From a virus: a stretch of 61,503 bases of DNA. Shown here piece after piece: positions 1,621-60,747 of this stretch. How positions within the stretch are numbered: position 1 is the stretch's first letter; each line of letters starts with the position of its first letter. The position numbers and the translations under genes were made by a program. The notes below the pieces were generated by a model that saw only the letters and a list, made by a program, of their open reading frames with translations, was not told where the DNA came from and searched no databases. Where the stretch lies: the IMG/VR virus record IMGVR_UViG_3300005347_000207, positions 1 to 61,503 of that record. One strand, 5' to 3'.

Positions 1621-2276
1621 GCGAAGCCCCGCCGAAGCGGGGGCCCGGCCGTCCTCGCAAAGAGCCGCCGCCCGCCGATCTCACCGCCGCGATGCCCGAC
1701 TGGCAGGAGTTCCGCCGGCCGGTCAACGTGACCTTCCTGATGAACGTGTTCGCCATGGAGCGGCGGACCGTCCAGACCCGGCTGCTGAATCTGGCGCCGG
1801 TGGCGCACGAGCGCGGAAACACGCCGCTCTACGACTTCCGGCAGGCGGCGGCCCACCTGGTCAAGCCGGTCGGCGACCTGAAGGAGCAGCTGAAGAGCTT
1901 CCGGGTCCAGGACCTCCCGACACATCTTCAGGCCCCGTACTGGGAAGCCATGCTGAAGCGCCAGAAGTACGAGCTGGTGGCGAGCAATCTCTGGCGCACG
2001 GAGGACGTGCTCGACGTTTTCGGCGAGGTGTTCATGCGGATCCGCGACAGCCTGCAGCTCTGGCCTGACACGCTCGCCGAAAACACCGACCTGTCGGACG
2101 AGCAGCGCGAGAAGTTGATCGAGCTCGCCGACGACCTGCAGAAGGACATCCACGGCAAGCTGATGAAGCTGCCGCGGCAGCGGAAGACGCCGAACCTCGC
2201 CGGCCGCTTGGCCGAGGACGAGGGCGTGCTGCCGGACGATGACGATCTCGATGACGACGAGGACTTGGTGGGATGA
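1617..2276 (+). CDS. Terminase small subunit (Nu1/DUF1441-like)
   Basis: DNA-recognition subunit of the packaging motor. It has the layout of Nu1/DUF1441 proteins: a basic Pro-rich N-terminus (KRGPGRPRKEPP), a winged-helix region where phage Nu1 proteins have their HTH (NVTFLMNVFAMERRTVQTRL), a helical oligomerisation part, and an acidic C-terminus ending in DDDEDLVG. It starts in a 4-nt ATGA overlap with the AlpA-like gene and in turn overlaps the radical SAM gene, so the three are translationally coupled. Lambda-type TerS implies cos packaging. Confidence 0.85.
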   Translation: MSEAPPKRGPGRPRKEPPPADLTAAMPDWQEFRRPVNVTFLMNVFAMERRTVQTRLLNLAPVAHERGNTPLYDFRQAAAHLVKPVGDLKEQLKSFRVQDLPTHLQAPYWEAMLKRQKYELVASNLWRTEDVLDVFGEVFMRIRDSLQLWPDTLAENTDLSDEQREKLIELADDLQKDIHGKLMKLPRQRKTPNLAGRLAEDEGVLPDDDDLDDDEDLVG

Positions 2277-3274
2277 TCATCGATCGTCCGGGCCCGGTTC
2301 GGCTCGTCCAGGTGGATGGGCGCCTGCCCAACCTCGCGCTCATGCGGCTGTCGCATTGGCTGAAGGCGCAGGGTCGCGAGGTCGTGTTTACGCGCAGCGT
2401 CAACCGGACGCCGGATGAGCCCGATTACGCCACCGTGCTGGGCAGTGCGATCTTCAAATTCAGCGATGCCCGCGTGGAGAAGCTGCGCACCAACTTCCCG
2501 GGTGCGATCGTCGGTGGGACTGGCGGAGATGATCTGATCACGGTCGAGCGGCTGATCGGAGACTACGAGCACTATGACTATTCGCTTTACCCCGAATTCC
2601 CGTTCAGCATCGGGTTCACCCAGCGCGGATGCCGGCCCGCTTGCGAATTCTGCGTCGTGCCGAAGAAGGAAGGCAAGCCGCGCAGCGTGAACACTATTCA
2701 CGGCATTTGGCGTGGCCCCGGCTATCCGAAAAAAATCCATCTTCTGGACAACGACTTCTTCGGCAACCCCCATTGGCGGGAGCGGATCGCGGAAATTCGC
2801 GAAGGGGACTTCAAGGTCTGCTTCAACCAGGGAATTAACGTCCGCATTCTCTCGAACGAGGTGGCGCGGGCGCTCGCCACGATCCAGTACCGCGATGACC
2901 AGTTCCAACGACGCCGCCTCTACACGGCCTGGGACAACATTGGGGACGAGCGGATCTTCTTCCGCGGCGTCGACCGGCTTGAGCAAGCTGGCGTTCCCGG
3001 CAAGCACCTGATGGCCTACATGCTCATCGGCTTTGACCCAGCTGAGACGTGGGGAGCGATCTTCCACCGCTTCCGACGGATGACGGACCGAGGAATCCTA
3101 CCTTATCCGATGGTATTCGATCACACCCGGCGGGATCTAAAGCGCTTCCAGCGGTGGGTCGTCACCGGCCTCTATAGGGCGGTCGCGTTCGAGGACTATG
3201 ACGCCAGCATCCGCCGGGCGCCTGCCCCAACAATCCTCCCCCGCCAACTCGTCACCTGGGCGCTTGCCGCATGA
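2273..3274 (+). CDS. Radical SAM protein between terminase genes
   Basis: Radical S-adenosylmethionine enzyme with the iron-sulfur motif CxxxCxxC at C120, C124 and C127 (RGCRPACEFCVVPKK). The N-terminal 90 residues (VDGRLPNLALMRLSHWLK, then VGGTGGDD) resemble the Rossmann-like cobalamin-binding domain fused to many radical SAM enzymes, without a clear cobalamin-binding His. A DNDFF strand and an IGFDP segment fit the partial TIM barrel. It overlaps TerS and TerL by 4 nt on each side, so it is co-translated with the packaging genes. Substrate is unknown; DNA-base or protein modification linked to packaging is possible. Family confident, function open. Confidence 0.85.
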   Translation: MIIDRPGPVRLVQVDGRLPNLALMRLSHWLKAQGREVVFTRSVNRTPDEPDYATVLGSAIFKFSDARVEKLRTNFPGAIVGGTGGDDLITVERLIGDYEHYDYSLYPEFPFSIGFTQRGCRPACEFCVVPKKEGKPRSVNTIHGIWRGPGYPKKIHLLDNDFFGNPHWRERIAEIREGDFKVCFNQGINVRILSNEVARALATIQYRDDQFQRRRLYTAWDNIGDERIFFRGVDRLEQAGVPGKHLMAYMLIGFDPAETWGAIFHRFRRMTDRGILPYPMVFDHTRRDLKRFQRWVVTGLYRAVAFEDYDASIRRAPAPTILPRQLVTWALAA

Positions 3275-5412
3275 CCTATCAGTTCCTCGAGCAGCTCGTC
3301 TTGGCCACTGCCGAGGGCGTCCGGCCGACCGAGCGTCTCACCGTCAGCCAGGCCGCCGAGAAGTACCGCTACCTGAACAACCCGGGCAGCTTCGTCGGCT
3401 ACTGGTCCAACGCCAAGACGCCGTACCTGGTCGAGCCGATGGACACGCTCACCAGCACCCAGTTCACCGGCATGGCGTTCGTCGGGCCCGCGCGGACCGG
3501 CAAGTCCGACATGTTCTTCAACTGGCTCACCCACACGTCGATCTGCGACCCCGCCGACATAATGGTCGTCCACATGACGCAGGCGACCGCGCGCGACTGG
3601 AGCCAGGGCGACCTGGAGAAGGCCTGCTTCCATAACCGCGACAAGAAGCGGCCGACGGAGATCGGCTCGCGCCTGGTGCCTGGGCGTCAGAACGACAACG
3701 TCTTCGACAAGAAGTTCCTCTCGGGCATGCGGCTGCTGATCAAGTGGCCGACGATCACGGAGCTGTCCGGCAAGACGATCCCGCGACTCTGGATCAACGA
3801 CTACGACCGTATGGGCCAGAACGTGGACGGGGAGGGGAATCCCTTCGACCTGACCCGCAAGCGGGCCGAGACCTTCAAGCGGTTCGGTATGTGCGTCGCC
3901 GAGGCCTCGCCAGGCTTCCCGGTCTCCGATCCGAAGTGGATTCCCGCGACCCCGCATGAGGCGCCGCCCTGCGAAGGCATCCTGGCCATCTACAACCGCG
4001 GCGACCGGCGCCGCTGGTATTGGCGCTGCCCGCAATGCCGCGAGACGTTCGAACCGGACTTCAAGCTGCTCAGCTACCCGAAGTCGGACGACTTCATGGA
4101 GGCCGCTGAGCAGGCCGTCCTGGTCTGTCCGCATGACGGCTTCCCGATCGCGCCTGACTTCAAGCAGGAGCTCAACGAGGGCGGCCGCTGGATCAAGGAG
4201 GGCCAGATCTGGATGCCGGACGGCTCCATGGAGGGGCGGGCGCGGCGTTCCGACATTGCGTCGTTCTGGATGAAGGGGCCGGCGGCCGCGTTCTCGGATT
4301 GGCGAAAGCTGGTGCTCAACTACCTCACGGCCGTCGAGGAATACGAGACGACGGGCTCAGAGGAAGCGCTGAAGTCGACCACGAACCTCGACCAGGGACT
4401 CCCCTACGTCTCCAAGGCCATGCAGTCGGACCGGCTGCCGCAGGAGATCAAGGACCGGGCGGAGGATTGGGGCGGCAGCAAGGAAGAGCCCGTTGTGCCG
4501 GAAGGGACGCGCTTCCTGGTGGCCACGGTCGACGTTCAGGCGCGCAGCTTCGTGGTCCAGGTCCACGGCCATGGCGAGGGCGGCGACGTCTGGCTGGTCG
4601 ACATGTTCAAGATCCGCAAGTCGGCGCGCGAGGACGAAGATGGCGACCGCCTGCCGATCGACCCGGCGGGGCACCCGGAGGACTGGAAACGCCTTGTCCC
4701 GGAGGTGATCCGCCGGACCTATCCGCTGGCCGACGGCAGCGGCCGCCGCATGGCCATGCGCATGTCGGGCTGCGACTCTGGCGGCCGCGAGGGTGTGACG
4801 ACCAACGCCTATGCGTTCTGGCGCTGGCTGCGGAACGGCCCGCCGGCCGGCGCGGAGACGCCGCTCGAGGACGAAGCCTGGTCGGACGATCTGTGGCCGA
4901 AGTTCCTGCTGGTGAAGGGTGAGGCGAAGCCGTCGCAGCCGCGCATCCGGCTCGGCTATCCCGACGCGCAGCGGAAGGACCGTCATTCCGGCGCCCGCGG
5001 CGACGTGCCGGTGCTCTTCATCAACACGAACCTGATGAAGGACCAGATGGCCGCCATGCTCGGCCGTAAAGAGGTCGGGTCGAACCAGATGCGCGCCTTC
5101 GGCATGCTGCACACGCCGACCTGGGCGGAGAACTGGCTCTACACCCAGCTTACAGCGGAGGTCCCGACGCCGAAGGGCTGGCTGAACCCGTCGGGCAAGC
5201 GGAACGAGGCTTGGGATTTGCTGGTCTACGACGCCGCGCTCTGCCTGCATCGCGAGATCCGGCTTGAGCATATCGACTGGCGCAGCCCGCCGAAGTGGGC
5301 GGCTACGTGGGACGAGAACGAGCTTGTCTGTGACCCAAATATCAACAAAAAGTTGGACCAACCACAAAAGGTGGATTACGACTTGGCGAAGCTGGCCGAA
5401 TCCCTCGCGTGA
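3271..5412 (+). CDS. Terminase large subunit (GpA family)
   Basis: ATPase and nuclease that cuts and pumps DNA into proheads. The N-terminal ATPase has the Walker A-like GPARTGKSD at residues 72-80 and a Walker B-type strand (IPRLWINDYD). A CPQC...CPHD zinc-binding insertion sits near residue 255, and the C-terminal nuclease contains ATVDVQ and MSGCDSGG with metal-binding Asp residues. The length of 713 aa is usual for GpA-type terminases. Starts in an ATGA overlap with the radical SAM gene. Two operator-like 15-mers lie in the last 70 bp of the gene. Confidence 0.95.
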   Translation: MTYQFLEQLVLATAEGVRPTERLTVSQAAEKYRYLNNPGSFVGYWSNAKTPYLVEPMDTLTSTQFTGMAFVGPARTGKSDMFFNWLTHTSICDPADIMVVHMTQATARDWSQGDLEKACFHNRDKKRPTEIGSRLVPGRQNDNVFDKKFLSGMRLLIKWPTITELSGKTIPRLWINDYDRMGQNVDGEGNPFDLTRKRAETFKRFGMCVAEASPGFPVSDPKWIPATPHEAPPCEGILAIYNRGDRRRWYWRCPQCRETFEPDFKLLSYPKSDDFMEAAEQAVLVCPHDGFPIAPDFKQELNEGGRWIKEGQIWMPDGSMEGRARRSDIASFWMKGPAAAFSDWRKLVLNYLTAVEEYETTGSEEALKSTTNLDQGLPYVSKAMQSDRLPQEIKDRAEDWGGSKEEPVVPEGTRFLVATVDVQARSFVVQVHGHGEGGDVWLVDMFKIRKSAREDEDGDRLPIDPAGHPEDWKRLVPEVIRRTYPLADGSGRRMAMRMSGCDSGGREGVTTNAYAFWRWLRNGPPAGAETPLEDEAWSDDLWPKFLLVKGEAKPSQPRIRLGYPDAQRKDRHSGARGDVPVLFINTNLMKDQMAAMLGRKEVGSNQMRAFGMLHTPTWAENWLYTQLTAEVPTPKGWLNPSGKRNEAWDLLVYDAALCLHREIRLEHIDWRSPPKWAATWDENELVCDPNINKKLDQPQKVDYDLAKLAESLA
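5342..5375. promoter_or_regulatory. Tandem operator-like 15-mers in end of terL
   Basis: TCAACAAAAAGTTGG (5342-5356) and ACCACAAAAGGTGGA (5361-5375) are two members of the dispersed palindrome family, with centres 19 bp apart. They lie inside the TerL coding sequence but only 51-84 bp before the gpW-like start, where a repressor could block transcription entering the head genes. Confidence 0.55.
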
Positions 5413-5425
5413 GTTCGAAGCCGAT

Positions 5426-5629
5426 ATGGCGACCCTTCAACAGCAGTTGGACGAAGCGATTGCAGCGCGCCACGCGCTCGCGATCGGTAAGTCGGTTGCC
5501 CAGGTGCGGGACTCCAACGGCGAGACGATCACCTACACGGCCGCCAACCTGACCCAGCTGACGGCCTACATCGCCGACCTTCAGCGTCAGCTCGGCGGCG
5601 GTCTCGGCCCGCTTCGGGTCCTTATGTGA
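5426..5629 (+). CDS. Head-tail joining protein, gpW family
   Basis: Small head-completion protein that follows TerL in lambda-like phages. The 67-aa sequence has the gpW pattern: a helix (QQLDEAIAARHALAIGK), a beta hairpin (SVAQVRDSNGETITYTAAN) and a second helix (LTQLTAYIADLQRQLGG). ATG 5426 gives the family's normal length. The stop overlaps the portal start (TGATG). Confidence 0.9.
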   Translation: MATLQQQLDEAIAARHALAIGKSVAQVRDSNGETITYTAANLTQLTAYIADLQRQLGGGLGPLRVLM

Positions 5630-7296
5630 TGTACGATCCCGAGGTCGAAGAGCTGCTCGGGCCGGTCGGGTCTCCCGGTTCGGCGGCGTCGTCCCCGTCT
5701 GTCGCACCTCCCGCGGCGGGCGGGGAAAGCGCGATCGTGGGCGGCGCATATGAGGGCGCGAGCCGTTTCGACCGCGCCGTGGCCCTGTGGCAACCGCCGC
5801 TCCAGTCCGCCGACCAGGACATCCTGGTCGAGAAGCGCGACCTGGACGCCCGGTCGCGCGACAGCCTGCGCAACGACGCCTACGTGGCCGGCGGCGCCTC
5901 GCTGCACAAGGACAGCATCGTCGGCGCGATGTTCCTGCTCAACGCCAAGCCGAACGGCAAGGTGCTGGGACTGGACGAGACCTGGGAGCAGGAGTTCCAG
6001 GAAGAGGTCGAGGCGAAATTCACGCTGGCGGCCGAGAGCCCGAACAACTGGTTCGACGCGGCGCGGCTGAACACCTTGACCGAGCTCGTGCGCCTGGCCG
6101 TGGGCGTGAACCTCGCCTGCGGCGAGTCCCTGGCTTCGGTCGAGTGGCTGAACAAGGACACGTCGCGCCCCTTCAAGACGGCGCTGCAGATGGTCGACGT
6201 CGACCGGCTCTCGACGCCGTGGGACCAGATCGAAGGCCCGCTGCTGCGCGGCGGCGTGGCGCGTGACCAGTACGGCGCGCCGCAGGGCTACTGGATCCGC
6301 AAGGCGCACCCGGCGGACGTGACCACGCCCGACATCTACTCGTGGAAGTTCGTGCCGGCGCGCAAGCCGTGGGGCCGCCCGCAGATCATCCACATCTACG
6401 AGCAGCTGCGGCCGGATCAGAGCCGCGGCGTGTCGCAGATGGTGGCCGCGCTGAAGGAACTGCGGATCACCAAGAAGTTCCGCGACGTCGTACTGCAAAA
6501 CGCCGTGGCCAATGCGACCTTCGCGGCCTCTATCGAGTCCGAGCTGCCAGCCGAGACGGTATTCGCCCAGCTCGGCGCCAACGGCGACTACGAGAAGGGC
6601 ATCGTCGACTACGGGACCGCGTACCTGGGCGCCATCGCCCAGTACACGGGCGCCTCGCGCAACATGATGATCGATGGCGTGCGGATCCCCCACCTGTTCC
6701 CGGGGACCAAGCTCCAGTTGCGTCCGGCCGGGCAGGGCGGTCCGCTCGGCACCGACTTCGAAACCTCGCTGCTGCGCTACATCGCCGCCGCGCTCGACGT
6801 CTCCTACGAGGAACTGAGCCGCGACTACACCCAGACGAACTATTCGTCGGCGCGCGCGGCGCAGAACAACACCTGGAAGGGGATGGTCTCGCGCAAGAAG
6901 CGCACGGCCGACCGCTTCGGCTCGACGGCCTATCGGCTGTGGTTCGAAGAGATGGCCAACGCCGGCCAGATCGAGGCGCTGAAGACGCCCAAAGCGCCGT
7001 CGATCTACGACGGCTTGAACATGGACGCCTATACGGCTTGCGACTGGATCGGCGCCTCGCGCGGCCAGATCGACGAGCTGAAGGAAACCCAGGCCGCCGC
7101 GCTGCGCCTGAAGCTGAACCTGTCCACGCAGGAAGAGGAAGCGGCGCGCCTCGGCAAGGATTGGCGCCGGATCAACGCCCAGCGACAGCGCGAAATCGCC
7201 GATCAGAAGGCGCGCGACATTTACGTCGATCCGAACGCGGCGGACCCAAACGCCAAGGCGGCTCACGCGGACCAAGGGGAAAAGGCCGATGCGTAA
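5629..7296 (+). CDS. Portal protein, lambda gpB family
   Basis: Forms the dodecameric ring at the capsid vertex through which DNA passes. Features typical of lambda-family portals are the RDSLRNDAYVAGG segment near residue 70, the PHLFPGTKLQLRPAG loop near 345 and the helical stem and crown region (YTQTNYSSARAAQNNTWKG). About 555 aa, as expected. ATG 5629 overlaps the gpW stop; a GTG at 5626 is an alternative. Followed with a short overlap by the protease gene. Confidence 0.93.
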   Translation: MYDPEVEELLGPVGSPGSAASSPSVAPPAAGGESAIVGGAYEGASRFDRAVALWQPPLQSADQDILVEKRDLDARSRDSLRNDAYVAGGASLHKDSIVGAMFLLNAKPNGKVLGLDETWEQEFQEEVEAKFTLAAESPNNWFDAARLNTLTELVRLAVGVNLACGESLASVEWLNKDTSRPFKTALQMVDVDRLSTPWDQIEGPLLRGGVARDQYGAPQGYWIRKAHPADVTTPDIYSWKFVPARKPWGRPQIIHIYEQLRPDQSRGVSQMVAALKELRITKKFRDVVLQNAVANATFAASIESELPAETVFAQLGANGDYEKGIVDYGTAYLGAIAQYTGASRNMMIDGVRIPHLFPGTKLQLRPAGQGGPLGTDFETSLLRYIAAALDVSYEELSRDYTQTNYSSARAAQNNTWKGMVSRKKRTADRFGSTAYRLWFEEMANAGQIEALKTPKAPSIYDGLNMDAYTACDWIGASRGQIDELKETQAAALRLKLNLSTQEEEAARLGKDWRRINAQRQREIADQKARDIYVDPNAADPNAKAAHADQGEKADA

Positions 7297-30964: not shown

Positions 30965-32215
30965 TCATAACAACTCAGCGACGTCGCTCGGGAAGCCTAC
31001 CAACGCTAGGATGTCCGGATCCTTACGCCATGGCAGAGCTAGGTTGAGACGTCGTCGGATGTCGGTGGCGTAGTCCGTTTCGCGTTCGATCAGGACGCAA
31101 TCGAAGCCCTCGTCGCGAGCCGCCTGACCGGTCGAGCCGCTGCCAGCGAAGGGGTCAAGCACCGTGCCGCCTGGTGGGGTCACGAGGCGGCAGAGCCAGC
31201 GCATCAGAGCGACGGGCTTGACCGTCGGGTGCGAGCTGCCGGCGCGATCGGCCTTGGACGCCTTGGCTTGATACATGATCGGGTTGGCAGGGAAGGCGTT
31301 GAAGAAACGAGCTGCGGAGCCGGAGTCTCCTCGGAAGGTGGAACCGGCCTCGTCTACGTTGCCCTTGAACGCACCATAGGTGTTCCGAAACTTGTCGGCG
31401 TTCCGCCTATGGACGGGCGCCGCGGCGCCCGCCTGGGCGGGAAATATGGCTGTCACGCCTTCCGAGCCGTCATGCACGAGGTTGGCGGGCCAGCGACCTT
31501 GATCCGATCCATTCGTGCCTGGGGTAGGCACCCAGCCGTCATCATTGATCAAGCCGAAGTCGGTCGCAGCGCGGGGTCGAACCGTGCTTTCGCCGCGAAT
31601 CCTGCATCCGTCGATGTTCACCGCACCCACGCCGTGTTTCAGGATGTTCAGAAATCCATTCTTCTCGGCGAAGGGCTTCTGTCCCATGTAGATCGGCTCG
31701 AGGGCCGGCTTGAGGCTCTGCGTTCCGTAGAACCAGCCTTCCCATGTAGCTGCCTCGGCCGTGCCGAGTGCCTTGTCGATCGCTTTTCCAACAGCGTGCG
31801 CCTTGGGAAAACCCTGGCCGTACACCCAGCCGATGAATGGGTGCATGATGAAGCCGGCGAGCTCCATGGCGCACGCCTGCCAATGGCCGGTCCTGGGCGA
31901 GCTGAACGCCAGAACATAGCCGCCGGGCTCGAGCACCTCGTAGACGAGCCGCCAGAACTCCGGATCTTGGGCGATGCGCGAGCCGTCTGGATCCGCGCCG
32001 TCCCAAGCCTTGCCCATGAAGCCCTTCGACTGGCGGGCAAACCGGCCATCTGACCCCGCCTTGGCCGGCGCAGCGCCGTCCTTGCCGAACCGTTTGACGA
32101 TGGATTCGAGGTAGTAGGGCGGATCGCAGACCACGGATTGGACGCGCACACCCTCGTCGGCCATGCGGGCGAGCACGGCCCGGCAGTCGTCGTGATGAAG
32201 GGTGATCCGGCTCAT
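30965..32215 (-). CDS. DNA methyltransferase, N6-adenine/N4-cytosine type (DPPY)
   Basis: 416 aa. The catalytic motif DPPY comes early (VVCDPPYYLES) and the SAM-binding motif late (VLDPFAGSGSTGQAARDEGF, then LIER), the motif order of beta-class amino-methyltransferases, with the target-recognition region between. No restriction enzyme gene is adjacent, so it is probably an orphan protecting phage DNA or tuning transcription. Last of a set of leftward genes; starts in an ATGA overlap with the gene upstream. Recognition sequence unknown. Confidence 0.92.
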   Translation of the reverse strand: MSRITLHHDDCRAVLARMADEGVRVQSVVCDPPYYLESIVKRFGKDGAAPAKAGSDGRFARQSKGFMGKAWDGADPDGSRIAQDPEFWRLVYEVLEPGGYVLAFSSPRTGHWQACAMELAGFIMHPFIGWVYGQGFPKAHAVGKAIDKALGTAEAATWEGWFYGTQSLKPALEPIYMGQKPFAEKNGFLNILKHGVGAVNIDGCRIRGESTVRPRAATDFGLINDDGWVPTPGTNGSDQGRWPANLVHDGSEGVTAIFPAQAGAAAPVHRRNADKFRNTYGAFKGNVDEAGSTFRGDSGSAARFFNAFPANPIMYQAKASKADRAGSSHPTVKPVALMRWLCRLVTPPGGTVLDPFAGSGSTGQAARDEGFDCVLIERETDYATDIRRRLNLALPWRKDPDILALVGFPSDVAELL

Positions 32216-34742: not shown

Positions 34743-34993
34743 AGCTGCTCCTGGTCGGGAAGATGCCGCCAGTAGGTCGGTCCGGCGCCGCCGTATTCGC
34801 TCCAGGTGAACTGGCGGTCGAGCGACTCCCAGAGGCCGGGCCCCGGCTGGATGAGCAAATTCAGGCCGGTGGCGTTCCAGTGCATCACGAACTCGCCGCA
34901 GTCGTCATCACCGACGATAATGCTGAGGCCGTTGCGCGGCGCGGTGGCGATCGGCTGGTTTGCCGGATCTGCGTGCTGACCGATCGCCATCAC
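34739..34993 (-). CDS. Hypothetical protein (PIATAPRNG type)
   Basis: 84 aa. The opening QPIATAPRNGLSIIVGDDD followed by an aromatic middle (TWSEYGGAGPTYWRHLPD) is typical of small phage proteins of the DUF551 kind. Tight ATGA overlaps on both sides. Function unknown. Confidence 0.7.
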   Translation of the reverse strand: MMAIGQHADPANQPIATAPRNGLSIIVGDDDCGEFVMHWNATGLNLLIQPGPGLWESLDRQFTWSEYGGAGPTYWRHLPDQEQL

Positions 34994-35613
34994 GCAGCAC
35001 CTTCGTGTGGCTTCACATAGAGCACGACAGTGGGTTTCTCCGCCTCACGAACGAATGGCGCCTTCGGGTTCGGATAGCGGTCAATGATCTCACCGGCCTT
35101 CCGACTCATGGCGGCCATCCAGTCGGGATCAGCCACGCTAGGCGGCCGGTCGTCCTCGCACATGCGGTTCATCTGGGCGTCTCGTAGGACGCAAAGCGCC
35201 GCTATGGCCTTGGTGACATGCGACAGCCCAGAGTCGGGGTCGACGTCCACGCCCTCCCACCAGTCGATCAGGTGGCGCAGGGCGGCGTCGTAGTAGACGG
35301 AGGCGCGGACGCCAGCGACCCGGTAGTTCGATCTGCCGTACTTCCTCGCCCCCTCGAGCATGGCCAGGCCAACTTCGCCGAGGACCTGGGCGGGGATGGT
35401 CGACAGCGGCGCCTTTCGGATGCCGACGGCGTCCTTGGGATTGGTCTCTTTGGTTGCCGTCGCAGCGGGCGTTGGGCAAGCGCCCTTGCCGCAGTCCGAC
35501 ACGCGCGCAAGCCGGCGGCCGCAGGAGGCGAGAAATCCCTCCGCTGGCGCGGCGCCTGGGATGACCTGCCGATCGCACTCCGGGCAGTATTCGACTAAGA
35601 CGCGCTCGGTCAT
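34990..35613 (-). CDS. DUF5664-type dATP/dGTP diphosphohydrolase-like protein
   Basis: 207 aa (ATG 35613, overlapping the MazG stop). N-terminal Cys cluster (YCPECDRQ..C..C) is zinc-ribbon-like. The core NPKDAVGIRKAPLSTIP, then GARKYGRSNYR, YYDAALRHLIDWWEG and DPDSGLSHVTKAIAAL is the DUF5664 pattern annotated as N-terminal dATP/dGTP diphosphohydrolase. Together with two MazG-type proteins it suggests control of deoxynucleotide pools during infection. Confidence 0.82.
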   Translation of the reverse strand: MTERVLVEYCPECDRQVIPGAAPAEGFLASCGRRLARVSDCGKGACPTPAATATKETNPKDAVGIRKAPLSTIPAQVLGEVGLAMLEGARKYGRSNYRVAGVRASVYYDAALRHLIDWWEGVDVDPDSGLSHVTKAIAALCVLRDAQMNRMCEDDRPPSVADPDWMAAMSRKAGEIIDRYPNPKAPFVREAEKPTVVLYVKPHEGAA

Positions 35614-35930
35614 TGGGTTTCTCCGGGGGAGGCTGCCGGCCGGCTTTCCGCGTGCCACTTCTGGAAGAGCACGAACTTCGCCTCTGTCCGTTCGAACAGC
35701 TGGTTTCGATCAAGATCGCAGGCAGACGTTACGTAGAGGATGGCCGCCCATACGTCGGCCATCTCGTCCAGAAGGCGCTGGTCAAGCGGCGGCCCGCCGT
35801 CCCAGTGATCCACCGAACCGCTTGCGCCGACGATCTTGCCGATGACCTGGAGCACCTCGCCCGCTTCCTCTGCGAGCTTGGACAGGCCCGGCCACTTGTC
35901 GGCGCCGATGCTGTACGGGCCAGCGCTCAC
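35610..35930 (-). CDS. MazG-family nucleotide pyrophosphohydrolase
   Basis: 106 aa all-helical NTP pyrophosphatase. Metal ligands are visible as KLAEEAGEVLQVIGKI (EExxE) and LLDEMADVWAAI (ExxD). Hydrolyses (d)NTPs to monophosphates in the family. Sits between the DUF5664-type and deoxyribosyltransferase-like genes with 4-nt overlaps. Confidence 0.88.
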   Translation of the reverse strand: MSAGPYSIGADKWPGLSKLAEEAGEVLQVIGKIVGASGSVDHWDGGPPLDQRLLDEMADVWAAILYVTSACDLDRNQLFERTEAKFVLFQKWHAESRPAASPGETQ

Positions 35931-36517
35931 GACAGGATCGCCTTAACGACGTCGAGGCCCTCCTCGAGCGTCGCCACTCGGAACCCGAGCGCTTCGCAGA
36001 GCATGGCATGCTCGTGCACATTGCCAGGCTCCATCACGCAGATGATTGGCGTCCGTGACAGGTCCGCCCATGCGCACTCCATGACAGTGCCGACACTGAT
36101 GCGCTCAGCGCCAGCGAAGTTCACCAGCATCACGTCGCAACGGGTGGCGTCGAAGCGGTCGCGCGTCATGATCGCGCGCTCCGTGGACAACGGATTCTCC
36201 TCATAGCCGCGGTTGGTGAGCTTGCCGCGGTCGCGGAGAAACTCCTTCGCCCTCATCGGCGACAAGGCCTTGATCCCCGCGGCGGCCAGGTCACGCGTGG
36301 CGAGGTCGCGCCAGCTGGTGGCGCCTTCGTAGTCCAGCCCAGCGATCGGGCCGGCGAGGTAGACGGTGTGGCGCACGAAGGCGAACTCCGATTGAGGTGG
36401 AACGAGGCGCAGCGGTGGTGCGCTGGGTAGCCGGATGGGATCGAGTTCGCCGTGAACGCCGAATTGTTGGACGAACTGAGCGACATCCGGCTCGTCGAGG
36501 ACGGACGGCAGCATCAT
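35927..36517 (-). CDS. Nucleoside 2-deoxyribosyltransferase-like protein
   Basis: 196 aa. VYLAGPIAGLDYEGATSWRD, ALSPMR and SVGTVMECAWADLSRTPIIC show the Rossmann-like fold and the active-site Glu of the nucleoside deoxyribosyltransferase/DUF4406 superfamily, which moves or cleaves bases from deoxynucleosides. N-terminal 45 residues are a variable extension. Fits the nucleotide-pool cluster. Confidence 0.85.
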   Translation of the reverse strand: MMLPSVLDEPDVAQFVQQFGVHGELDPIRLPSAPPLRLVPPQSEFAFVRHTVYLAGPIAGLDYEGATSWRDLATRDLAAAGIKALSPMRAKEFLRDRGKLTNRGYEENPLSTERAIMTRDRFDATRCDVMLVNFAGAERISVGTVMECAWADLSRTPIICVMEPGNVHEHAMLCEALGFRVATLEEGLDVVKAILS

Positions 36518-41982: not shown

Positions 41983-43959
41983 GTGAACATGCAATCTCAA
42001 ACCCAAGCCGCCGAACTCCCCGCCATCGGAACGCCCGTCTATAAGCGCGGCCAACTTGGTTACGTGTCGCGGATTGTCGAGGCGCAAGCCGGCGTCTTTG
42101 TGATCGGCCGCGGAATGCAAGCCGTCCGCCATGAAATCGAAATGGTGTTTGACGGCTATTTGACTCAGGTCGGAGACGGTATCGCCGCGCCCTGGCTCGA
42201 TGAGGCGCGGCGCACTGGTCGCCCCTCAATCAGCCCCGAAGAAGTCGAGACACGCCGCGCGGCGGCCGTGGCGGCGCAGACGGCCGCGCGTGATCAGCGG
42301 ATGCGCGAACACCACGAGGCGCAGGAACGCGCCGCGGCATTCAAGATCGAAGCGGCCGCCCGCATGCCGCGCGACGCAAAAGCCGTGATCGTCGCCGAAC
42401 TTCACGAAGACGACAGCGACAGCATGACCGATTATTTCGGGCACAAGGTGCGCCGGACGGTCATTCTCGCATGGTCGACGCACACGCGAGACCTGTTTCC
42501 CGAGCTGCGCAAGGCGGCGCTGAACTTCGCCGAAACGGCCGAACTGCACGACGCGCCAGAGAAGGCGGAGCACCACGAAAAGTACAGCATGGGCGCGGGC
42601 TTCTACCTGAAGCACGGGTTCCGCGACTCGTCGGGCTGGTCGGTCAAGAAGGTGCGCCTTTACGATCGCGGCGCCGACAACGTGCCCGTTGGCGAATGGT
42701 GCGAGGCATTGAGCGGCGCGAAGCCGCAACCCGCGCCGGCCGGCGCTCCCAAGCTGTCGCACGGCTTCAGCATCGAGAAGCACCACCACACGAAGGGCGG
42801 TTTTGATATGTGGCTCGCGATCATCGGCGAGCGCGTCGAGCGATCGGAATATGACCGCCTGTTGGCCGCGGCAAAGTCGCTCGGCGGCTGGTACTCCCGC
42901 GCCTGGAACGGGACGCCGGCCGGCTTCGCCTTCAAGTCGGAAGCCGCCGCGTTGGAATTCGCGGGCGCCCCGACCACGGATGACCCGATCGCCGAACGCC
43001 CGGCGGCCGCGCCCGCTGTGCCGCGCAATGAAGGGACGTCCGCGAAGCTCCGCGACATGGCGGACCGCCTGCAAAAGGATATCGACCACAAACTAGCGGA
43101 CCGCCTGAGCAACACGCCGAAGCGCCAGCGGGAGGCGCAGGCGGCGCGCCTGGACGGCTACCAACTGCAGCGGGCACAACAGGCAATGCGGGCGCTCGCC
43201 GATCACTACGACGCGAACACGGTTCCGGCCGAACTGCGCGGCATCACCACGAAAGCCGAAATCGTCAAGCTTGCGGCGGCCGAGATTTCCCGCTCCGGCG
43301 GCTATTACGACGCCGGGCACGAGACCGGCCGGCCCTACAGCGACACGCCAGCCGCGCGCGCCCTTTGGGATCTACTGAAGCCGCGCAGCGCCGCGGACCA
43401 GAAGGCGGACGAACTGCGCCAGATGGTCGACGCGCTGAAGTTCTCCAGCATCCCGGGCTATTTCCCGACGCCTCGGCCGATCGTCGCCCGCATGCTCGAG
43501 GCGGCCGAGCTCGAGGACGGAATGAGCGTGCTTGAGCCGGAAGCCGGTAGCGGGGCGATCCTGGACGAAGTCCGGGCGGCCGCGCCGTCGTCCAGCTTGG
43601 CCGCGTTCGAATGCCATTACAGCTTGCGCAAGATCCTGCTGGCCAAGGGCTACAATCTGACCGGCGCCGATTTCATGGAAGCGCCAGCGTCGCCGCTCTT
43701 CGATCGCGTGCTGATGAACCCGCCCTTTGAGGCTGGCCAGGATATGGCGCACGTCCGCCACGCGTTCGAGTTCCTGAAGCCCGGCGGCCGCCTCGTCGCG
43801 ATCATGTCGCCCGGCCCGTTCTTCCGGAGCGACCGCAAGTCCGCCGAATTCCGCGAATGGTTCGAAGGCCTGGGCGGGGAGTGCGAAGACCTGCCGGCCG
43901 GCGCCTTCAAAGAAAGCGGAACGGGCGTTGCAACGGTCCTCGTGACGCTCTGCGCCTAA
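41983..43959 (+). CDS. DNA methyltransferase with large N-terminal region
   Basis: 658 aa. The C-terminal 200 residues are a class I SAM methyltransferase: YFPTPRPIVARMLEAAEL, LEPEAGSGAILDEV (motif I) and the amino-methyltransferase catalytic NPPF (RVLMNPPFEAGQDMAHVRHA). The N-terminal 400 residues contain AELHEDDSDSMTDYFGHKV and a KHHHTKGGFDMWLAIIGERV domain seen in plasmid and phage replication-related proteins. Probably adenine-specific. GTG start as argued for the leader. Confidence 0.87.
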   Translation: MNMQSQTQAAELPAIGTPVYKRGQLGYVSRIVEAQAGVFVIGRGMQAVRHEIEMVFDGYLTQVGDGIAAPWLDEARRTGRPSISPEEVETRRAAAVAAQTAARDQRMREHHEAQERAAAFKIEAAARMPRDAKAVIVAELHEDDSDSMTDYFGHKVRRTVILAWSTHTRDLFPELRKAALNFAETAELHDAPEKAEHHEKYSMGAGFYLKHGFRDSSGWSVKKVRLYDRGADNVPVGEWCEALSGAKPQPAPAGAPKLSHGFSIEKHHHTKGGFDMWLAIIGERVERSEYDRLLAAAKSLGGWYSRAWNGTPAGFAFKSEAAALEFAGAPTTDDPIAERPAAAPAVPRNEGTSAKLRDMADRLQKDIDHKLADRLSNTPKRQREAQAARLDGYQLQRAQQAMRALADHYDANTVPAELRGITTKAEIVKLAAAEISRSGGYYDAGHETGRPYSDTPAARALWDLLKPRSAADQKADELRQMVDALKFSSIPGYFPTPRPIVARMLEAAELEDGMSVLEPEAGSGAILDEVRAAAPSSSLAAFECHYSLRKILLAKGYNLTGADFMEAPASPLFDRVLMNPPFEAGQDMAHVRHAFEFLKPGGRLVAIMSPGPFFRSDRKSAEFREWFEGLGGECEDLPAGAFKESGTGVATVLVTLCA

Positions 43960-59529: not shown

Positions 59530-59555
59530 GGGCTCCTTCGGGGGCCCTTTTCTTT
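59530..59555 (+). terminator. Rho-independent terminator after repressor
   Basis: GGGCTCC and GGGGCCC pair around a TTCG tetraloop (6 bp plus one G-T), followed by TTTTCTTT. Overlaps the likely TTG start of the methyltransferase gene, so termination and translation start are physically linked. Confidence 0.9.
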
Positions 59556-60747
59556 GTCGCGTGCCTACTACAACGAGATCGATCGGTACGCCGCGGCCTG
59601 GCTCCGCAACTTGATCGCCGAGGGCGTAATCGCGCCCGGCGACGTGGACGAGCGGGACATCCGAGATGTCACTCCAGGCGACCTCGCCGGCTACACCCAA
59701 TGCCATTTCTTCGCCGGCATCGGCGTCTGGTCCTACGCTCTCCGTCGTGCCGGCTGGCCGGACGAGCGGCCCGTCTGGACCGGATCCTGCCCTTGCCAGC
59801 CTTTCAGCTCGGCAGGCTCAGGAAAGGGGTTTGCTGACGAGCGGCACCTATGGCCGTTCTGGCTTCATCTCATCCGCGTCGGCCGCCCTGATGTTGTCTT
59901 TGGCGAGCAGGTTGCGAGCAAGGACGGCTTGCTGTGGCTCGATCTTCTATTCGACGACCTTCAAGGAGAGGGCTACGCCTTCGGGCCGCAGGATTCCTGC
60001 GCTGCGGGCGTCGGTGCGCCGAACATCCGCCAACGACTTGGGTTCGCCGCTCGGGAGTTGGGGAACTCCGACGACGTCAGAAGCCGGCGGCACGCCGGAA
60101 GCCTTCTTGCACCGGAAGGAAGCATTGGGCGGCCGATGTGGCGTGTCGTTGACTGCGTTGAACCTCCAAGCGGTATTGGCGGCCTGGCCCACGCCGACAA
60201 CTCCGAGCGGCGGGCAAACTGTCCCGGAGGGAACGACGGCGACCGGGAGGCGCCCCAACGGGACGAAGGCGACGGTGACACTCGGCAACGTAGCGACATT
60301 GTCTACATGGCCCACGCCGAAGAGTTCGGATGTCGCGAACGGTTGGCTGGGCCACATAGACGGACGCCGTTCGAACCTGAACGACACAGTGCTGCTGGCG
60401 TCGCCCTGGGCGACGCCAGCGAACAGAGACTATCGAACGCCGAACTTGAAGCCCTACTCAGAGCGGGGCGGGGGAGCGAAGGGCGAGCAGCTCAACAACC
60501 AGGTCGTACATTCTGGTCCGATCCTGACTGGCTCTTCTGCCGAGATAGCAAATGGCGCCCGGTTGAACCCGGCACATTCCCGCTGGTTGATGGGGCTCCC
60601 GCCCGTATGGGACGCCTGCGCGCCTACGGAAACGCGATCAACGCGGAGGACTTCGCCGGCCGCATCCGCGATTTCCTCGAGGCGGAGGCAGCCGGCTTCA
60701 CTCCTGGCCTGGGCGCTGGCGGCCTAGACGAAGACCTGATCGGCTGA
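59554..60747 (+). CDS. DNA cytosine-5 methyltransferase
   Basis: 397 aa. AdoMet motif CHFFAGIGVWSYALRRAGW, catalytic SCPCQPFSSAG (Cys81), FGEQV (motif VI variant) and GVGAPNIRQRL. TTG 59554 is the only start that keeps the conserved YNEID region; it lies at the end of a terminator. After about residue 160 this frame reads LAHADNSERR, VYMAHAEEFG and FWSDPDWLFCRDSKWRPVEP, then GRLRAYGNAINAED, a known methyltransferase C-terminus, ending in GLDEDLIG. The +1 frame over the same DNA reads another known C-terminus; see the separate entry. Confidence 0.88.
   Translation: MSRAYYNEIDRYAAAWLRNLIAEGVIAPGDVDERDIRDVTPGDLAGYTQCHFFAGIGVWSYALRRAGWPDERPVWTGSCPCQPFSSAGSGKGFADERHLWPFWLHLIRVGRPDVVFGEQVASKDGLLWLDLLFDDLQGEGYAFGPQDSCAAGVGAPNIRQRLGFAARELGNSDDVRSRRHAGSLLAPEGSIGRPMWRVVDCVEPPSGIGGLAHADNSERRANCPGGNDGDREAPQRDEGDGDTRQRSDIVYMAHAEEFGCRERLAGPHRRTPFEPERHSAAGVALGDASEQRLSNAELEALLRAGRGSEGRAAQQPGRTFWSDPDWLFCRDSKWRPVEPGTFPLVDGAPARMGRLRAYGNAINAEDFAGRIRDFLEAEAAGFTPGLGAGGLDEDLIG
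60041..60727 (+). other. Overlapping +1 frame encoding alternative methyltransferase C-terminus
   Basis: In the +1 frame relative to the methyltransferase, open from before 59666 to TAG 60725-60727, the DNA reads GSWGTPTTSEAGGTPEAFLH, LAAWPTPTTPSGGQTVPEG, STWPTPKSSD, SPWATPANRDYRTPNLKPYS, GEQLNNQVVH and LNPAHSRWLMGLPPVWDACA. The repeated W-x-TP and the LNPAHSRWLMGLPP block are hallmarks of phage cytosine methyltransferase target-recognition regions as I recall them. A +1 shift near 60030-60048 (CGACTTGGG) would fuse the catalytic domain to it. Confidence 0.7.

Follow-up and report, generated by a model that had tools for sequence, protein, structure and literature searches.

A radical SAM gene between the terminase genes of a temperate phage, in a slot that holds a DNA methyltransferase gene in near-identical phages

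The window analyzed here, that is, the whole IMG/VR virus record of 61,503 bases, begins with a gene for a tyrosine integrase (positions 1 to 1221), which marks a temperate phage. It is followed, on the same (plus) strand, by genes for an AlpA-like excisionase/regulator (1402 to 1620, upstream of TerS), the terminase small subunit TerS (1617 to 2276; phrog_141, E value of 1e-38), a radical SAM protein of 333 amino acid residues (2273 to 3274; phrog_9298), which sits in the TerS-TerL slot, and the terminase large subunit TerL (3271 to 5412; Pfam domains GpA_ATPase, E value of 2e-57, and GpA_nuclease, 4e-56). Next come a small gene at the gpW-like (head-joining) place, the genes for a portal protein of the lambda family (5629 to 7296, plus strand) and an S49 protease, a second small gene in the decoration protein position, and the gene for major capsid protein E. 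The order of integrase, AlpA-type regulator, TerS, and TerL is the one found in temperate members of the Casjensviridae, for instance, Rhizobium phage RHph_X2_30, whose TerS and TerL genes overlap with nothing in the slot between them; the window virus is a temperate Casjensviridae-like siphophage.

The first-pass annotation of this DNA had described the radical SAM gene as translationally coupled to both terminase genes. The 4-nt overlaps are real, an ATGA being common to TerS and the radical SAM gene at positions 2273 to 2276 and to the radical SAM gene and TerL at 3271 to 3274, but the same overlap is found in 19 of the 74 same-strand neighbor pairs of the window, AlpA-TerS among them, and coupling as a special property of this gene was rejected. 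The G+C content of the gene (0.60 to 0.62) is lower than that of most of its flanks (about 0.64 to 0.68), consistent with acquisition of the gene.

The open reading frame (2273 to 3274, plus strand) starts with ATG and has no internal stops, and the phrog_9298 profile (“radical SAM domain protein”) covers residues 10 to 297 of its product with an E value of 4e-44, although the Pfam Radical_SAM model scores 15.2 bits, under its 29.5-bit cutoff. The cysteines of the CRPACEFC (CxxxCxxC) motif are conserved in an alignment of 47 sequences (C120 in 47, C124 in 46, and C127 in 47), which bears out the early description of a complete radical SAM protein. The same alignment contains invariant or near-invariant blocks at L158-G164, Q186-R191, A219-D221, R266, and R294-W295, as expected of an enzyme maintained by selection. 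The structural model (pLDDT of 92, pTM of 0.85) has a radical SAM barrel fold, and the top-ranking solved structures are AprD4 (Z score of 19.3, root mean square deviation [rmsd] of 3.7 over 296 aligned residues), MgmA (Z, 18.2), MtaB (17.8), MiaB (17.7), RimO (17.2), and TsrM (16.6), followed by OxsB and CysS; the comparison with MiaB/RimO and B12-type enzymes proposed at the outset thus places the predicted protein near this group. With the predicted model, the nearest of these folds (AprD4, MgmA, MiaB/MtaB/RimO, and TsrM) align over 275 to 296 residues with rmsd values of 3.3 to 4.2, at 13 to 18% sequence identity. Structural matches to spore photoproduct lyase, QueE, and lysine aminomutase were taken to reflect the common barrel. 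The window gene encodes an intact radical SAM protein, which would be expected to cleave SAM.

The cobalamin-domain-like N terminus noted earlier finds support in the predicted fold, residues 4 to 97 matching corrinoid-binding domains with Z scores of 6 to 8, but not in the Pfam search, which gave no B12-binding match. In MiaB/RimO methylthiotransferases, three N-terminal cysteines hold an auxiliary cluster. These cysteines are absent from the window protein, whose first cysteine is C120, so that a MiaB-type auxiliary cluster is absent as well; together with a score of 14.1 bits against the NCBIfam MiaB/RimO models (cutoff, 251), this argues against membership in that group. A PDB sequence search returned nothing significant, PADLOC gave no match, and the single PDB match of Foldseek alone with an E value below 0.001 was OxsB. 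In the BFVD search, the top match was a methylthiotransferase-like protein of Megaviridae (E value of 4e-6, TM score of 0.58), and matches to phage proteins were weak.

Two near relatives of the window, L089 and L090, encode TerS proteins that are 97.3% and 95.9% identical, and TerL proteins that are 99.2% and 99.3% identical, to those of the window. In both, the slot holds a gene for an N6_N4 DNA methylase (E values of 3e-49 and 5e-48, respectively; the two methylases are 63% identical to each other) instead of the radical SAM gene. DNA similarity to the window extends to position 2286 and begins again at 3246 in L089 and at 3257 in L090, leaving a segment (2287 to 3245, plus strand) without DNA similarity to either relative between alignable flanks, which are 97 to 98% identical. 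What the window and its relatives share at the edges are the opening bases of the slot gene and the final codons that precede the TerL start; the unrelated slot proteins therefore have a common C terminus, WALA followed by one residue. At one site in near-identical phages, a radical SAM gene and a DNA methyltransferase gene have been precisely exchanged. Without the radical SAM gene, L090 still encodes a portal protein 99.5% identical to that of the window, protease and decoration proteins 100% identical, and a major capsid protein whose first 122 residues are 100% identical (L090 and L091 are 100% identical and, with L200, which comes from the same contig as L090, were counted once). A search of the L089 to L093 records (fragments of 5 to 20 kb for L089 to L092 and 64 kb for L093) for the radical SAM gene at other sites found none. 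Since the near-identical TerL and head proteins occur without it, the gene is optional cargo and not a required partner of the terminase or capsid.

Contents of the slot were surveyed in TerL relatives from three overlapping scans (32, 80, and 80 loci), which gave at least 154 TerL loci; TerS was visible at 144 of the 154 among the matches listed. Removal of near-duplicates left, among the matches listed, 91 distinct TerS-TerL loci, or 92 with L089 kept apart from L090. In most of these relatives, the packaging genes are contiguous, as the first-pass annotation had assumed: among the matches listed, the gap between TerS and TerL is at most 60 nt in 73 of the 91 loci, 61 to 350 nt in 7, and more than 350 nt in 11. 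Counting L089, 12 of 92 slots exceed 350 bp, and 6 of these 12 contain a DNA methyltransferase, again among the matches listed. The latter comprise N4/N6 methyltransferases in L089, L090, and L214, C5 methyltransferases in L203 and L205, and, in L093, a methyltransferase-like protein (weak similarity only) together with a DUF2786/DUF7168 protein. In L214, the methyltransferase gene is accompanied inside the slot by a gene for a Mom-like DNA modification protein (positions 3989 to 4504 of that locus; phrog_1384, E value of 5e-35; NCBIfam XF1762), that is, by DNA modification cargo that is neither a methyltransferase nor a member of the radical SAM family. The remaining 6 filled slots among the matches listed comprise one with a PAPS-reductase-like gene (L253) and five without known function, namely, four that carry a family of 130 to 160 residues between TerS and TerL (L095, 3504 to 3986; L099, 1250 to 1669; L102, 2747 to 3220; L204, 1206 to 1598; the L095 member belongs to phrog_19233, which has no annotated function) and one, L216, whose content has no assigned identity. 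Two further loci resemble filled slots: L224 has a PAPS-reductase-like gene in or near the slot, TerS not being visible there, and in L030, which lies outside the 92, TerL is preceded by a radical SAM gene, the contig beginning inside that gene, so that TerS is not seen.

The cargo of the slot is biased toward DNA modification. Outside the slot, a strict classifier (no iteration, motif filters) found 7 methyltransferases in 840 genes, giving a binomial probability of 3e-10 for the excess in the slot; this classifier drops some true methyltransferases (e.g., in L106 and L142) and, because its seeds include slot genes, is biased toward these. The background depends on the classifier: a looser tally, rejected because SNF2-type helicases had entered it in the second pass, gave 46 methyltransferases in 854 genes, and even against this contaminated background the excess has a probability of 2e-5. 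Among the control junctions, none of 45 between the gpW-like and portal genes and none of 70 between the portal and protease genes were filled, compared to 7 of 80 between TerL and the gpW-like gene, one of which (L106) holds a methyltransferase-like open reading frame. The bias therefore peaks at the TerS-TerL junction but is not confined to it. Of 81 loci surveyed, 3 have a methyltransferase gene immediately ahead of TerS, and a DNA methylase gene is found just upstream of TerS in phage RcCWillis. In L308, an open reading frame between TerL and the gpW-like gene resembles, by eye, an RtcB RNA ligase, a putative assignment.

The window phage also encodes methyltransferases outside the slot, an N6_N4 DNA methylase (30965 to 32215, minus strand) and a C-5 cytosine DNA methylase (59554 to 60747, plus strand), the latter belonging to the same family as the slot genes of L203 and L205 (43 to 44% identity). 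With at least two such enzymes elsewhere in the genome, there is no need for the slot gene to take over their function. A scan for partner genes covered 70 of the 86 called genes of the window, with families listed for 60 of those 70; no thymidylate synthase, base kinase, or queuosine-type gene was found among the families listed for these 60 genes (25 of 31 matched families). A dGTP_diPhyd_N protein and a nucleoside 2-deoxyribosyltransferase-like protein are encoded close together (34993 to 36517, minus strand) and are possible nucleotide-level partners. A 658-residue protein (41983 to 43956) has a C-terminal part that is weakly methyltransferase-like.

Members of phrog_9298, the family to which the window protein belongs by profile, were detected in 14 phage records (e.g., Bacteroides phage BKO1-TP3 and Methanomassiliicoccales virus vir215), the best being about 31 to 34% identical to the window protein. 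In the seven records inspected, the gene is surrounded by genes for replication or accessory functions and not, as in the window, by terminase genes. A wider set comprised 80 of 93 matching viral stretches and 80 of 144 genome stretches; 21 plasmid records also matched. Gene calling recovered the radical SAM gene at 84 of 87 viral and phage loci, in varying gene contexts; in most homologous loci it does not adjoin a terminase gene, and in many there is no methyltransferase gene nearby. A housekeeping function was rejected, as close homologs (55 to 65% identity) occur in phage contigs and scattered bacterial contigs with no single fixed locus. The radical SAM protein of L030 groups with those of L022, L140, L023, and L025 (support of 100/99), apart from the window protein, so the two belong to different clades. 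In L048, the radical SAM gene overlaps and precedes an unrelated TerL of the Terminase_6 type, which is followed by a portal gene; the layout of gene lengths is the same in L049, L059, L062, L063, and L064, of which L059 was re-inspected.

Across 104 nonredundant loci, methyltransferases account for 28 of 733 genes within four genes of the radical SAM gene versus 11 of 988 genes farther away (Fisher's exact test, P = 1.8e-4), a gradient that could result from the tendency of both kinds of gene to reside in accessory regions. In L152, an N6_N4 methyltransferase gene adjoins the radical SAM gene. Positions 4952 to 9860 of L006 (Oscillospiraceae phage NatCom_21982) encode, in a row and with overlapping ends, an S-AdoMet synthetase, a ParB-fused N6_N4 methylase, the radical SAM protein, and a C5 methylase, so that the synthetase gene lies two genes upstream of the radical SAM gene.

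Cellular relatives include proteins of about 700 residues with a C-terminal domain of this radical SAM family, which are encoded at 24 of the 80 genome loci (within L165 to L199; e.g., L197, 2038 to 4128). In the model of the L197 protein (pLDDT of 84.7), the N-terminal 319 residues match the ABC ATPase fold of the PtuA protein of Septu and retron systems (including retron Ec78) with Z scores of 16 to 20 (best, 20.1; rmsd of 3.8 over 278 residues), compared to about 14 for SMC/Rad50 heads. In the 12 of 20 alignment rows listed, the fusion proteins have no Walker A glycine-lysine motif, and the ATPase-like part has no counterpart in the window protein. The fusion ties the radical SAM family to nucleic acid conflict, and the fused proteins are possibly defense or genome-marking proteins. 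Some PtuA- or PARIS-type systems attack tRNA.

What the window enzyme acts upon has to be judged from gene position and predicted fold, on which all functional statements here are based. The methyltransferase gene in the same slot of near-identical phages and the methyltransferases in half of the filled slots lend support to DNA as the target, and the reading that we favor, on balance and by a modest margin over even chances, is that of a radical SAM DNA-modifying (antirestriction) enzyme expressed with the packaging genes. The gene would then be cargo of a DNA modification slot between TerS and TerL, encoding a stand-alone enzyme whose 5'-deoxyadenosyl radical may attack a carbon of a base in the phage's own DNA, for example, in a C-methylation. 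Its family and chemistry are unrelated to those of the packaging-operon N4/N6 and C5 methyltransferases (L089, L090, L203, and L205 and, next to the slot, RcCWillis), yet its role may equal theirs, shielding progeny genomes from host restriction. The position in the packaging operon would lead to late expression alongside the terminase, such that concatemers might be modified just before packaging and the prophage would stay unmodified.

Of the targets suggested in the first-pass annotation (DNA, the terminase, or the capsid), the slot contents thus favor DNA. An enzyme dedicated to packaging that modifies the terminase or capsid would fit the position and coupling of the gene, as well as the L048-type loci, where it directly precedes an unrelated TerL gene and a portal gene; this is nonetheless highly improbable, given that phages with 99% identical TerL and 99.5 to 100% identical head proteins lack the gene, that no copy is seen elsewhere in the 5- to 20-kb fragments of L089 to L092, and that most homologs lie in other gene neighborhoods. 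A role in accessory metabolism, with a deoxynucleotide or cofactor changed before or instead of DNA and the slot serving as a general site for accessory genes, is rather unlikely: the strong bias of the cargo to DNA methyltransferases, the presence of a Mom-like gene among it, and the absence of thymidylate synthase and base kinase genes among the families listed count against it, even with PAPS-reductase-like genes (L253, and L224 with TerS not visible) and genes without known function in some slots, the dGTP_diPhyd_N and deoxyribosyltransferase-like proteins of the window, and the SAM synthetase gene of L006 pointing that way. Modification of tRNA or other RNA, which could shield host tRNAs from tRNA-cleaving antiphage nucleases, draws on the similarity of the fold to MiaB, MtaB, and RimO (Z scores of 17 to 18), a group that includes tRNA methylthiotransferases, and on the PtuA-like fusions; with no cysteine before C120, the low NCBIfam score, and a slot shared with DNA methyltransferases, this appears improbable.

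If the DNA modification reading is correct, radical SAM enzymes would be an alternative to methyltransferases that works on the bases of DNA directly, and the TerS-TerL junction would be a place to seek new DNA modification enzymes. The natural cassette exchange gives a widespread phage radical SAM family a concrete, testable function assignment and suggests that this large family also chemically marks viral DNA. A broader and more speculative proposal, which we advance tentatively and consider somewhat doubtful, is that PHROG 9298 represents a new class of DNA base-modifying enzymes that would use radical chemistry on unactivated carbons to make DNA restriction-proof with no nucleotide-level pathway and would be swapped with packaging-operon methyltransferases, the fusions with degenerate PtuA being an unrecognized genome-marking or defense system. 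In titles and abstract openings of the open literature (subscription journals and preprints lay outside this search), neither a radical SAM gene nor a DNA modification slot between terminase genes was found, and passages of PMC10853773, PMC7641849, and PMC12715929 contained nothing bearing on the window gene.

Two minor features of the family's gene neighborhoods may be added. L010 and L149 each carry two copies of the radical SAM family, and the pair in L010 flanks a methyltransferase gene. PAPS-reductase-like genes occur no more than three genes away from the radical SAM gene in L024, L053, L082, L086, L126, L129, L142, and L195; in a post hoc comparison, they account for 7 of 198 adjacent genes versus 6 of 1,523 others when the class is defined loosely, and for 3 of 198 versus 3 of 1,523 (P = 0.02) when it is defined strictly.
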